Shown: positions 24,461-28,206 of the stretch, piece after piece
Numbering within the stretch: the stretch's first letter is position 1
Layout: each line of letters starts with the position of its first letter
Source of the DNA: Parasphingorhabdus litoris DSM 22379
GTDB taxonomy: Bacteria; Pseudomonadota; Alphaproteobacteria; Sphingomonadales; Sphingomonadaceae
Reading direction: 5' to 3'
Length of the DNA: 64,000 nt
Assembly: GCF_020906275.1 (NCBI RefSeq)
Contig: NZ_CP086727.1
Coordinates: 1,674,001-1,738,000, forward strand
The notes under the pieces: model-generated
Databases searched by the model: none
What the model saw: the letters and a program-made list of their open reading frames with translations, nothing else
What the model was told of the DNA's origin: nothing
Position numbers and translations under genes: made by a program

Positions 24461-25324
24461 TTAGAAACGCAAACTCAACCCGGCATTGAGTGATATCGCT
24501 TCCGGCCCGACAAACCCCAATGTCTGGGTTGCAGAAAGGTTTAGCCGCAGATTTTCTGAAAGCCCGAAAGAGGCCGATCCACCGACTTCCATCCAGACGT
24601 CTCCTTCGCCAGGAGCATTACGGATCGCCGCAAGCTGCGCGACCCTTTCGCCTCCGGTTCCGGGAGAAAACACGGTGCTGTTGCTGCTCGCCACGATGGC
24701 AATATAGGGTCCAGCGCTATGGGCCGCAGATTCTCCGAACAGATGAACGTAGCTAAAAGCTAGAGATCCACTGAAACCGTCCTCGCGTTCTTCGACGGTC
24801 AACAGCCTGCCATTGGGTGCGGTTGCCAGCCGGCCAATATCGACACTGTCATAATCTACCGACACCGAAGGTGAGAAAAAGCCATATTCGCCCACCGGAA
24901 TATCATAGGTCAGTGTTAGTCCTGCGCCGAAAATCTGGCCGCTGCTGTCCACCAGAACGGGCGTATCTTCACTGCCGAGACTTTCGGTATCAAATTTGCG
25001 GCGCCCCAATGAAACGCGCCCGCCAAAACTGACCGCATTCAAGCGAATGCCGCCAAACAGGGTTATCTGTTGTGTTCGTGCCGGGACTGTCCGCAAAAAC
25101 CCTTGAGTCGCGGTCGGATCGGTAAAACTTGCCGCGATACCAATATAGGCATCGCCAATTTCGCGCGTTACAGATCCTGCAATATACGACTGATCGTCAC
25201 TATCGCCGATCATAGTTGTGCCGCCGGATATCCCAATTTCCCATCGATTATCCTGTGTTTGCTCCGCGGCAAAAACAGGCGTGGAAACCGCCCATATCAG
25301 CCCGGCCAGACAGATATTTCTCAT
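24461..25324 (-). CDS. Outer-membrane beta-barrel protein of the ECF locus
   Basis: 287 aa from ATG at 25324, preceded by AGGGGGA. Signal peptide MRNICLAGLIWAVSTPVFA, cut before AEQ. The rest is alternating beta strands with Gly-rich turns (WEIGISGGTT, AYIGIAASFTD, VSFGGRVSLGRR, AGLTLTYDIPVG) and a terminal LSLRF, the barrel insertion signal. It resembles autotransporter-barrel or Omp_b-brl-type small porins; no passenger domain is present. Its promoter faces that of the ECF sigma gene and carries the same GAAGGGTTTT-N10-GCGT element, so it is a likely member of that sigma factor's regulon. Confidence 0.82.
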   Translation of the reverse strand: MRNICLAGLIWAVSTPVFAAEQTQDNRWEIGISGGTTMIGDSDDQSYIAGSVTREIGDAYIGIAASFTDPTATQGFLRTVPARTQQITLFGGIRLNAVSFGGRVSLGRRKFDTESLGSEDTPVLVDSSGQIFGAGLTLTYDIPVGEYGFFSPSVSVDYDSVDIGRLATAPNGRLLTVEEREDGFSGSLAFSYVHLFGESAAHSAGPYIAIVASSNSTVFSPGTGGERVAQLAAIRNAPGEGDVWMEVGGSASFGLSENLRLNLSATQTLGFVGPEAISLNAGLSLRF

Positions 25325-25362: not shown

Positions 25363-25386
25363 ACGCGGCAACACGCAAAACCCTTC
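25363..25386 (-). promoter_or_regulatory. ECF-type promoter of the outer-membrane protein gene
   Basis: On the minus strand GAAGGGTTTT, ten bases, GCGT, located 39-62 bases upstream of the ATG at 25324. Identical in both blocks and spacing to the elements at 25397 and 27166. With the neighbouring plus-strand copy it forms an inverted repeat centred on an A/T-rich loop. Confidence 0.7.
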
Positions 25387-25396
25387 AAAAAAATTC

Positions 25397-25420
25397 GAAG
25401 GGTTTTAAGACTTGGCGCGT
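25397..25420 (+). promoter_or_regulatory. ECF-type promoter of the sigma factor gene (autoregulation)
   Basis: GAAGGGTTTT at 25397-25406, ten bases, GCGT at 25417-25420, followed by ATTATG. It lies about 39 bases upstream of the sigma start. An element shared with two other genes of the locus suggests recognition by the sigma factor itself. Confidence 0.7.
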
Positions 25421-25458
25421 ATTATGGGTATTAAGGGGCGAAAAGCCGCGCAGGCGGA

Positions 25459-26058
25459 GTGGGATATTTGGAGACGGCAAAGGCGATAGACGGTCAGGAT
25501 GACGATGCGCTTATGCGCAGCATCCGCGCGCGCGATTCTGAAGCGTTGCGCAATGTCGCTGATCTTTATGCCGAAATTCCGTTTCGCATAGGTTGCCGCA
25601 TGCTCGCTGATCCAGTGGAGGCAGAAGATATCGCGCAAGAAACGCTGCTTCGTCTGTGGAACCATGCGGATCGCTGGGTGGAAGGTGGTCCGGGCATTGC
25701 CGCCTGGCTCAGCCGTGTTGGGACCAACTTGTGCATAGACAGGCTGCGCAAGGCACGCCGCCAAAGCAGTGATGAGGCCCCTGATCGCGCCGACGAAACG
25801 CCACTTGCGGACGCGGCAATAGAAAGTGATGAAGTGAAACAAGCGGTAATCGAATGTATAGGCGACCTTCCCGAACGGCAGCGGGCGTCGATCATTCTCA
25901 CCTATTATGAACAGCTTTCCAATCAGTTGGCCGCCGACAGTCTGGATATGAACATTAAGGCGTTCGAGTCACTGCTCTACCGTGCGCGCGGCATATTGAA
26001 AGACTGTGTCGAAGGCAAAGGCGTGGTCAAAGATGATGCGGGAAGGATGTGTCTATGA
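25459..26058 (+). CDS. ECF-family RNA polymerase sigma factor
   Basis: 199 aa from GTG at 25459 (a TTG at 25468 is an alternative). Region 2 spans about 25-95 with AEDIAQETLLRLW, the core-binding and -10 recognition helix. Region 4 spans about 135-185 with LPERQRASIILTYYEQLSNQLAA and LLYRARGIL, the -35 recognition helix-turn-helix. A polar linker rich in Asp/Glu lies between them. It overlaps the following gene, a predicted membrane-bound partner, by 4 bases, as sigma/anti-sigma pairs do. The three identical promoter elements around it suggest autoregulation plus control of an outer-membrane and a secreted protein. Confidence 0.93.
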   Translation: MGYLETAKAIDGQDDDALMRSIRARDSEALRNVADLYAEIPFRIGCRMLADPVEAEDIAQETLLRLWNHADRWVEGGPGIAAWLSRVGTNLCIDRLRKARRQSSDEAPDRADETPLADAAIESDEVKQAVIECIGDLPERQRASIILTYYEQLSNQLAADSLDMNIKAFESLLYRARGILKDCVEGKGVVKDDAGRMCL

Positions 26059-27146
26059 TGAGTGCATCTGCCAACGCCTTTTCCCCCACGATGCGCGCGG
26101 CGCTGGATCATTATGATGTGCCAGCGTTACCTAGCGGTTTTGCCGACCGTCTGGTTGCCCGGGTAGAATCCGAAGCCAGCGGAAAGCCGGCCGTTCACAA
26201 AAGTGCGCAGCCGCGTCGTCGCTCCCCAAGCCCCTGGCGCCGTGCTGGACGCTGGGTGGGTTCGGTTGCCACCGTCGGGCTTATGTCCGCAACCGCCGCA
26301 GCGATGGGGCTTTTAGGCGAGCCTGTCGAGGTGCCGGTTATTTCCGATATCGCCCGAAACCTAGATATAGTTGTCAAGCCGGAGCCCGCCGCCATTCCAT
26401 TGGCGCGTAATGCAGAGTCGCCGGGATCAGGACAGCAGATTGAAAAATCAGAACCTATCGTAAAAGAAACCGCACTGACAGAAGGCCAGATAAACGCGCA
26501 AAATATGTTGGAACGGGTTACCGACGCACCCCGTTTCAAACAGCTGCGCCCGCGTCAAAAAGCAGCGGTACTAAAAGCAGCATCAAGAAAACTGATCCGT
26601 TCGGGCAAAGCCACGCCGGAAGAGCTGCGGTCCGCCGTCAAACAGGTTCGTGCAGAACGGCAAACCAATAGAACGCAAACGCGAGCCGAGCGCATAAGCG
26701 AAAAAATTCAGAACGCGACGCCGGTGCAAAAGGAAAGGCTGTTGGAGCGGATCGAGGCACTACCGCCTGAACGGCAAGCTATCGCAAAAGAACGATTGGC
26801 CGGTATATTGGCCGAGCAGCAAACCTCTTCATCTGAGCCTCTGTCGCTCGCGCCCTCTGAACCAGCAGAACAAACCACGACATCCATTGAGGCCGCGGAG
26901 CCTGTAGTGACGCCTGAAATCAACGCCGACGATGTCATGACCGACGATTCCACACTTTCGTCAACACCGGCGGCGGCGATTCCGGTTGCGCCGCGGCGAT
27001 TGGAACAATTGCGCGATCGCTATCTGCAGGCAACACCAGCCGAACGCGCTCGCATGCGCGAACGTGCCAAACAGATTCGCAAGTCCGCGAAGCCGCGTCC
27101 GAACCTGAAGGAACGCCGCGCGCAGATACGTCGCCGCCGCAATTAG
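26055..27146 (+). CDS. Membrane-anchored helical-repeat protein, putative anti-sigma factor
   Basis: 363 aa from ATG at 26055, with GGAAGGA 7 bases upstream and ATGA overlap with the sigma stop. The N-terminal 70 residues are cytoplasmic and begin with a short helix (FADRLVARVE). A single membrane segment is at about 70-92 (VGSVATVGLMSATAAAMGLLG). The large C-terminal part should be periplasmic. It contains three similar charged helical units, FKQLRPRQKAAVLKAASRK, ERIEALPPERQAIAKERL and LQATPAERARMRERAKQIR, resembling the L-x-P-x-x-R repeats of DUF3106-type proteins. It ends in a very basic tail. Order and topology make it the best anti-sigma candidate; it lacks the ZAS zinc motif. Confidence 0.75.
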   Translation: MMSASANAFSPTMRAALDHYDVPALPSGFADRLVARVESEASGKPAVHKSAQPRRRSPSPWRRAGRWVGSVATVGLMSATAAAMGLLGEPVEVPVISDIARNLDIVVKPEPAAIPLARNAESPGSGQQIEKSEPIVKETALTEGQINAQNMLERVTDAPRFKQLRPRQKAAVLKAASRKLIRSGKATPEELRSAVKQVRAERQTNRTQTRAERISEKIQNATPVQKERLLERIEALPPERQAIAKERLAGILAEQQTSSSEPLSLAPSEPAEQTTTSIEAAEPVVTPEINADDVMTDDSTLSSTPAAAIPVAPRRLEQLRDRYLQATPAERARMRERAKQIRKSAKPRPNLKERRAQIRRRRN

Positions 27147-27165
27147 GCTGGTCATAAAATTTTTC

Positions 27166-27189
27166 GAAGGGTTTTCCGTTCTCAAGCGT
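27166..27189 (+). promoter_or_regulatory. ECF-type promoter of the secreted repeat-protein gene
   Basis: GAAGGGTTTT at 27166-27175, ten bases, GCGT at 27186-27189, then TGAAC. Third copy of the element in 1.8 kb; it lies 55 bases upstream of the ATG at 27244. Confidence 0.7.
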
Positions 27190-27243
27190 TGAACAGACAG
27201 GAGCGGCAAAGAAGCTGCGACTGAATAGAGTATGGAGAGTAAA

Positions 27244-27819
27244 ATGAAAAAGATCATGTTGTTACCCTTGGCTGCCTTGATAGTTGGTGGCCCGGCGCTG
27301 GCCGAACGCACCAAAACAGTTTCCGTGGACAATGACCGGGTCATCGGCACCAAGACTATTACCCGCGACGGTGCTGGCAATGTTGTCGTTGACGGTGATA
27401 TCACCCGTAAATCGGATGGCGCAACTGCAAGCCACGACTATAATCGCACGCGTACCGAAGCGGGCTGGACGGCTAGTGGCCAACAGACCGATTTTAAAGG
27501 CCGGTCACGCGGCTTCGATTATCAACGCGACCGGACGGACAATGGTTTTGAAGCGAGCGGTTCGGCCTATAATCGTCGCGGTGATCAATATGACTATTCC
27601 GCTTATGGCACGCGCGGCGAGAATAGCCGCGAACGCGGCCGGACGGTGACCCGGAATGGTGATGTCGTTTATGATCGTCTGGACAATGCTTCGCGTGTCG
27701 ACGGGAAGATCGTGCGCAATACGCAGGTGACGCGCGATCCCAGTTTCCGTCCGAAAAAGCGGATAAAACCATTGCGCGTCAAGAACCCAAAACCACGGAG
27801 ATTTCGCCACGATCGCTAG
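27244..27819 (+). CDS. Secreted basic protein with two internal repeats
   Basis: 191 aa from ATG at 27244 with GGAGAG four bases upstream; an in-frame ATG at 27232 is less likely. Signal peptide MKKIMLLPLAALIVGGPALA, cleaved before ERT. The mature part is Arg/Asp/Gly-rich with a 15-residue unit repeated as DYNRTRTEAGWTASG (65-79) and DYQRDRTDNGFEASG (92-106). Smaller echoes (DQYDYSAYGTR) follow. A strongly basic C-terminus ends in KPRRFRHDR. No known family is recognised. An ECF-type promoter copy and its position after the sigma/anti-sigma pair make it a probable regulon member with an envelope role. Confidence 0.78.
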   Translation: MKKIMLLPLAALIVGGPALAERTKTVSVDNDRVIGTKTITRDGAGNVVVDGDITRKSDGATASHDYNRTRTEAGWTASGQQTDFKGRSRGFDYQRDRTDNGFEASGSAYNRRGDQYDYSAYGTRGENSRERGRTVTRNGDVVYDRLDNASRVDGKIVRNTQVTRDPSFRPKKRIKPLRVKNPKPRRFRHDR

Positions 27820-27833
27820 ATCGCCGAAATAAA

Positions 27834-27885
27834 CTGCGGCTGGCACTAATCCTTTCACTCAATCGGCCAGCCGCAGCTTTATTTT
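27834..27885 (+). terminator. Terminator after the secreted repeat-protein gene
   Basis: CTGCGGCTGG and CCAGCCGCAG form a perfect 10-bp stem around a long loop, followed by a T-rich tail (CTTTATTTT). Confidence 0.75.
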
Positions 27886-27909: not shown

Positions 27910-28206
27910 ATGAAACAGACGAATATCATGATCATTGCAGCCATTTTAATTCCCGCACCGGCGCTGGCCCAACAGGAAAGTGTTGAGGCAAATCCCGCGC
28001 AGGCTGTGGAATCCGGTATGCAGATTGGCGTCGAAACCGATTATCCGGAGAACAGATCAAGCGGCCCCAACTGGAAGAAGATAAACCGCAAACTCAATGC
28101 CCGTGCGAAAAATGCCATCGAAAACGGAGCAAGGCCGAAAGTTGTTCGCCAAAAATTGCAAGTTCATAAGCAGAAGCTGCGCCGCCGCTGGACTGCGTCC
28201 CAATAG
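27910..28206 (+). CDS. Small secreted basic protein
   Basis: 98 aa with a clear signal peptide (MKQTNIMIIAAILIPAPALA, cut before QQE), preceded by AGGAGAGAGG. The mature protein is short: an acidic linker, then a lysine/arginine-rich helix (KINRKLNARAKNAIENG and KLQVHKQKLRRRW). It resembles the basic helical tails of the preceding proteins. It lies behind a terminator with no ECF element of its own, so its control is unclear. No family recognised. Confidence 0.72.
   Translation: MKQTNIMIIAAILIPAPALAQQESVEANPAQAVESGMQIGVETDYPENRSSGPNWKKINRKLNARAKNAIENGARPKVVRQKLQVHKQKLRRRWTASQ

Follow-up and report, generated by a model that had tools for sequence, protein, structure and literature searches.

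The stretch of DNA considered here (the window; 64,000 nucleotides of Parasphingorhabdus litoris DSM 22379) carries three copies of the element GAAGGGTTTT-N10-GCGT within 1.8 kb, and the question raised by the locus is what reads them. A sequence-only reading had interpreted the element as the -35/-10 pair of an ECF regulon, with copies upstream of an outer-membrane protein (OMP) gene, the sigma gene itself and a gene for a secreted repeat protein. Inspection of the sequence confirmed the positions and strands of the three copies, their identical blocks and differing spacers, and the back-to-back placement of two of them (sites A and B), which form an inverted repeat with perfect 10-bp arms (Table 1). 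These are also the only exact copies in the whole genome (3,610,303 bp; 3.61 Mb), in which ∼0.03 would be expected by chance, an estimate that assumes 14 fixed bases and a 3.6-Mb sequence read in both directions. The genome contains no copy with one mismatch. At two mismatches there are 25 matches, which look like noise because the reversed pattern, used as a control, itself matches 48 times when up to two mismatches are allowed; there is no sign in the genome of additional regulon members at this level, while weaker members may exist. All three sites are intergenic and display ECF-like spacing, the CGT ending 38 nt before the start codon of both the OMP and the sigma gene, and 54 nt before that of the secreted protein. 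Immediately 5' of GAAGG, sites B and C have a C, whereas site A has a T. The genome does not hold many copies of the motif inside unrelated coding regions, the distribution that the sequence-only reading had named as evidence against itself.

The labels originally given to the three genes are consistent with domain searches, in that Pfam identifies the outer-membrane protein and the ECF sigma; the secreted repeat protein has no Pfam match, and its signal peptide was recognized by eye. The sigma factor comprises 199 amino acids and contains only the sigma2 and sigma4 domains, the domain content of ECF (group IV) sigma factors, and it scores 74.1 bits against the sigma70-ECF model TIGR02937 (cut-off 42.9). 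The sequence-only reading made no mention of the gene that overlaps the 3' end of the sigma gene. Its product displays a short N-terminal region, a hydrophobic segment at approximately residues 62-88 (assigned by eye) and then a helical domain. Overall confidence in its AlphaFold model is low (pLDDT 67.6, pTM 0.34), but helices at approximately residues 145-250 are predicted confidently; the model also has two short N-terminal helices that precede the hydrophobic segment. Although the searches returned neither a Pfam domain nor a fold match for this product, its position and topology suggest that it is likely the anti-sigma. Invariant ATAAA residues occur in the hydrophobic segment in 17 of 17 aligned homologs; they resemble a signal-peptidase-type site and could represent a cleavage point in signalling. 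The secreted protein is modelled as an all-beta meander of 11 strands (pLDDT 81.9). The hairpin that follows its gene is not returned by a consensus terminator scan, which permits loops of 3-8 only. Beyond this hairpin an ORF at 27910-28206 encodes a small protein whose N-terminus resembles a signal peptide; a similar ORF is present in a close relative (L029), and in the window no motif copy lies 5' of it.

Table 1. Positions of the predicted promoters, genes and terminator of the locus in the window.
Feature	Positions	Strand	Remarks
Outer-membrane beta-barrel gene	24461..25324	-	Divergent from the sigma gene; ATG at 25324; Pfam Autotransporter beta-domain, 1.8e-08
Site A, predicted promoter of the OMP gene	25363..25386	-	Exact copy; -35 GAAGGGTTT, 12 nt, -10 CGT (CGTTTTC)
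Gap between the two back-to-back -35 boxes	25387..25396	.	10 bp, A/T-rich; gap sequence different in P. marina and S. boeckii
Site B, predicted autopromoter of the sigma/anti-sigma operon	25397..25420	+	Exact copy; -35 GAAGGGTTT, 12 nt, -10 CGTATTA
ECF sigma gene	25459..26058	+	GTG start (start codon uncertain); Sigma70_r2 4.6e-15, Sigma70_r4_2 9.9e-10; K167 codon 25957-25959
Putative anti-sigma gene	26049..27146	+	365 aa; overlaps 3' end of sigma ORF; one hydrophobic segment
Site C, predicted promoter of the secreted repeat gene	27166..27189	+	Exact copy; -35 GAAGGGTTT, 12 nt, -10 CGTTGAA
Secreted beta-repeat gene	27244..27819	+	Start 27244 as in most homologs (alignment of 22 sequences); ORF opens at 27232
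Hairpin and T-rich stretch, likely intrinsic terminator	27826..27885	+	3' of secreted gene; -27 kcal/mol, z -6.9

The three sites are very probably on-switches, that is, promoters recognized by RNA polymerase when it carries the ECF sigma whose gene lies between them, because the same sites accompany the same genes through many relatives. In the mechanism that we infer, which extends to promoter activity, recognition by the sigma, the function and topology of the anti-sigma and the envelope signal, each site would consist of a -35 box, (C/T)GAAGGGTTT, and a -10 CGT set 12 nt apart. Site B would allow the sigma/anti-sigma operon to activate itself; transcription of the divergent outer-membrane barrel gene would start from site A, and that of the secreted beta-repeat gene from site C. 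In the idle state the membrane-anchored product of the adjacent gene would retain the sigma, and an envelope signal sensed by the helical domain outside the membrane would set the sigma free.

A sigma homolog with at least 53% identity is present in 5 of 32 genomes of the genus (P. litoris included; some of the genomes are incomplete), and all three sites are exact in four of these five, P. litoris among the four. This patchy distribution indicates that the cassette has probably been gained or lost often within the genus. In P. marina (G012) and Sphingobium boeckii the three-site architecture is kept with no more than two changes among the 14 fixed bases of each site; the spacers have diverged while the blocks persist. 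P. marina has one exact site, one with a single mismatch and one GAAGGGAAT form. The latter, in which GAAGGGAAT takes the place of GAAGGGTTT, is at its site C (L215:4805-4828) and is also carried by loci L221, L231 and L239.

The association of sites with genes extends beyond the genus. The sigma autopromoter, defined as G[AC]AGG[AG]-N15/16-CGT within 400 nt, is present at 5 of 5 genus loci, 24 of 29 family loci (from the best 30 of 45 family matches) and 19 of 22 order-level loci, compared with 1 of 23 control ECF genes and 1.3-2.6% of shuffles. Among the five family loci in which the pattern is missing (again from the best 30 of 45; three order-level loci also lack it), two, L031 and L220, have one-base variants of the box. 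Across 34 distinct loci, with the family represented by the best 30 of its 45 matches, a paired divergent site accompanies the divergent OMP homolog at all 14 loci that have one and was found at none of the other 20, and a site precedes the secreted gene at all 18 loci where this gene was found. The same pattern occurred in only 0.8% (paired site) and 0.4% (secreted-gene site) of shuffled regions, rates that are a guide and not a p-value, as the pattern was widened (G/A/T at position 6) after the relatives had been viewed, the shuffles preserved nothing beyond base content and the loci are related by descent. The gap between the paired -35 boxes is 8-10 bp in 13 of these 14 loci and 29 bp in the other one (family loci from the best 30 of 45). 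The window's unrefined motif, at a score of at least 11/12, was detected at 13 of 25 order-level loci, none of 20 other ECFs and none of 1000 shuffles of the order-level regions. It was likewise found at none of 55 distant homologs, three of which scored 0 where upstream DNA was missing; these 55 were drawn from 73 more distant loci (L036-L108). With respect to sampling, the autopromoter and paired-site counts leave out L032 and L034 (the same records as L229 and L223) and L029 and L030 (the same as G023 and G019), and the cross-genus site survey includes both copies of L032/L229 and L034/L223. One locus scan covered only L029-L066 and L138-L167, and the low-scoring L164-L166 serve as other-ECF controls in the autopromoter count and belong to the order-level set in the unrefined-motif count. 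The ECF -35/-10 interpretation originally proposed is thus supported by unique intergenic sites with ECF-like spacing, by their co-occurrence with sigma, OMP and secreted genes across genera, and by the rarity of the pattern upstream of other ECFs (1/23, and 0/20 at 11/12 or above).

The perfect arms of the inverted repeat in the window raise the possibility that AAAACCCTTC-N10-GAAGGGTTTT is not a pair of promoters but an operator for a dimeric transcription factor acting over the divergent genes, and the conserved spacing (8-10 bp at 13 of the 14 loci; family loci from the best 30 of 45) would be in keeping with such a role. An operator does not, however, explain why site C is single, nor why none of the 20 loci without the OMP gene (same family sample) is paired although most retain a single site at the sigma. 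Furthermore, where the boxes recur they are followed by CGT at a distance resembling that of ECF promoters, a pattern found upstream of only 1 of 23 other ECFs, and among seven proteins of the neighbourhood the sigma alone has a Pfam DNA-binding domain. We consider an operator very improbable.

It is also conceivable that the sites are promoters for another sigma factor (sigma70 or a different ECF) and that the adjacent sigma is incidental. Indeed, CGTATAAT-like -10 boxes at some of the order-level sites resemble the sigma70 -10. A sigma70-type scan, however, returned no promoter at any of the three sites, and sites A and C read CGTTTTC and CGTTGAA, not TATAAT. Exact sites in 60 relative genomes are confined to five with a close sigma homolog and one other (G048), whose copy is inside an ORF, and reading by a different sigma is therefore rated highly improbable. 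Three close copies within 1.8 kb could, in principle, reflect chance or the recent duplication of one intergenic segment. This is barely credible given that the three sites share their blocks but have different spacers and flanks, that the blocks are retained in P. marina and S. boeckii despite diverged spacers, and that shuffle rates are 0.4-0.8% per region. Promoters read by the sigma of the locus thus remain the preferred explanation.

The consensus of 46 distinct sites is CGAAGGGTTT, followed after 12-13 nt by CGT. By position it reads C (93%), G, A (85%) or C, A, G, G, G (76%) or A, T (78%), T (85%) and T (72%), and CGT is followed by A (57%) or T (41%); the positions named in the search pattern were fixed by construction, and those free to vary were the C preceding GAAGG, the TTT and the bases that follow CGT. 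The GCGT block originally proposed can be refined accordingly, in that CGT recurs, as does GAAGG(G/A), but the leading G is merely preferred (70% of the 46 sites). Canonical ECF promoters, such as those of Escherichia coli sigma-E and EcfG, are of the form GGAAC / CGT(T). The statement that the -35 block is not the usual GGAAC is true of the string, although by phase the GAA core appears to be kept and only the 3' flank changed. The box may therefore represent an ECF -35 that retains GAA and in which the C of GGAAC is replaced by a G-rich GGGTTT flank. On this alignment the sites would resemble canonical ECF promoters in the -10 CGT and in a GAA core at nearly equal phase, and would differ from them in the 3' flank (GGGTTT in contrast to C(TT)) and in the spacer, which is 17-18 with the GAA cores superposed.

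A candidate determinant of specificity for this flank is the lysine at the start of the recognition helix (K167). Of the homologs whose sigma4 recognition helices were aligned, 48 have the motif and 18 lack it; K occupies this position in 46 of the former and in five of the latter, two of the five (L031 and L220) being those with one-base box variants. E or D is found in 11 homologs, and in all 11 the motif is absent. Lysine is also present at this position in several control ECFs outside the branch, showing that K alone is insufficient. In the sigma tree the Sphingomonadaceae form a clade of 34 rows (support 100/98), 29 with the motif. The motif is absent from the 10-row sister group of this clade but present throughout a neighbouring order-level clade (13 of 13 rows), a distribution that may reflect two origins or a loss. 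The tree and the K167 alignment keep L032 and L034 and leave out L223 and L229; the tree also leaves out L058 and L095 and includes long-branch rows.

The closest parallels come from the ECF26 sigmas of Sinorhizobium meliloti. In the excerpts of PMC6180224 drawn on here, RpoE1, RpoE3, RpoE4 and RpoE6 each have a downstream anti-sigma with one membrane helix, an arrangement similar to that of the present alphaproteobacterial ECF and its putative anti-sigma. The mapped ECF26 promoters in Table 1 of that source mostly display, by eye, a GGAATA-like -35 located ∼14-16 nt before CGT, which differs from the present sites, where GAAGGGTTT is 12-13 nt before CGT. Consistent with this difference, the best match to an ECF26-type -35 (GGGAATA, ∼14-16 nt from CGT) upstream of the window sigma scored 7/10, against a shuffle mean of 7.3. 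One RpoE1-responsive promoter among those excerpted, SMc04291, starts GAAGGGAATA and has GCGT at the phase of the present sites, although a second CGT 5 nt further along suits the mapped start better (PMC6180224). The -35 flank may therefore be a variation on the ECF26 theme, which lowers the odds that the specificity is undescribed. The GAAGGGAAT forms of some relatives are part-way to the S. meliloti ECF26 box, yet at shorter spacing. PRK05602 (NF004113), the best NCBIfam match of the window sigma, was considered as a family assignment and rejected, the score of 187.8 bits falling below the curated cut-off of 208. Among eight further proteins this cut-off was passed by L037 (Mesorhizobium; 275) and L151 (217), the latter with GAAGGGTTT-N12-CGT upstream. 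Loci L037, L049 and L054 (Mesorhizobium, Rhizobium) have GACGGATTT-N12-CGT at the matching place upstream of the sigma, which is perhaps a sister specificity paired with E/D at the K167 position. The window sigma is assigned as an ECF sigma only, and to neither ECF26 nor PRK05602, because a group logo for its branch may already exist.

The kind of system is ordinary, comprising a self-activating ECF with a local envelope regulon, and what is of interest is the -35 flank, the retention of the back-to-back arrangement among relatives and the lead offered by K167. Tentatively, and with the balance somewhat against it, a Sphingomonadales ECF branch may have an undescribed -35 specificity, CGAAGG(G/A)TTT, set in part by K167, and in the Sphingomonadaceae may drive a small envelope cassette, complete in itself, in which the two divergent promoters are held in a fixed back-to-back arrangement, their -35 boxes separated by about one helical turn. 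The flank itself is possibly undescribed with respect to promoters printed as text, motifs given as logos lying beyond a text search. The locus offers a clean candidate pairing of a sigma with promoters whose -35 is not GGAAC; the local regulon is very small, orthologs are numerous and a single residue is a candidate for specificity. Such a pair is a direct test bed for -35 reading by ECF sigma4, and might serve gene circuits as an orthogonal part.

A search of 296 genomes from the order returned 25 matches to GAAGGGTTT-N12/13-CGTATNA, in 19 genomes, compared with 2 for the reversed pattern. The pattern was derived from order-level autopromoters, so that the P. litoris site and the sigma sites of G036, G041, G045 and G058 are not independent, in contrast to the remaining matches; within the window only site B has a CGTATNA -10. 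The ORFs 3' of the 25 matches encode sigma homologs in six cases, and Pfam identified EF-hand proteins (three), outer-membrane efflux proteins (two) and a trypsin/PDZ protease, HlyD, MFS, DUF2807 and DUF6515 (one each). The downstream product at L210 resembles the trypsin/PDZ protease in its opening residues, and the eight matches left over were unscanned or had no clear gene. As judged by these gene classes, the downstream genes would point to an envelope function, and strong motif copies before trypsin/PDZ protease, EF-hand, outer-membrane efflux and HlyD-like genes provide a pointer to an uncharacterised envelope response in sphingomonads. P. marina also has an additional exact copy on another contig (L130:1501-1524, minus strand), ∼110 nt before an ORF whose opening residues resemble a polysaccharide-type membrane protein, a possible extra member of the regulon.
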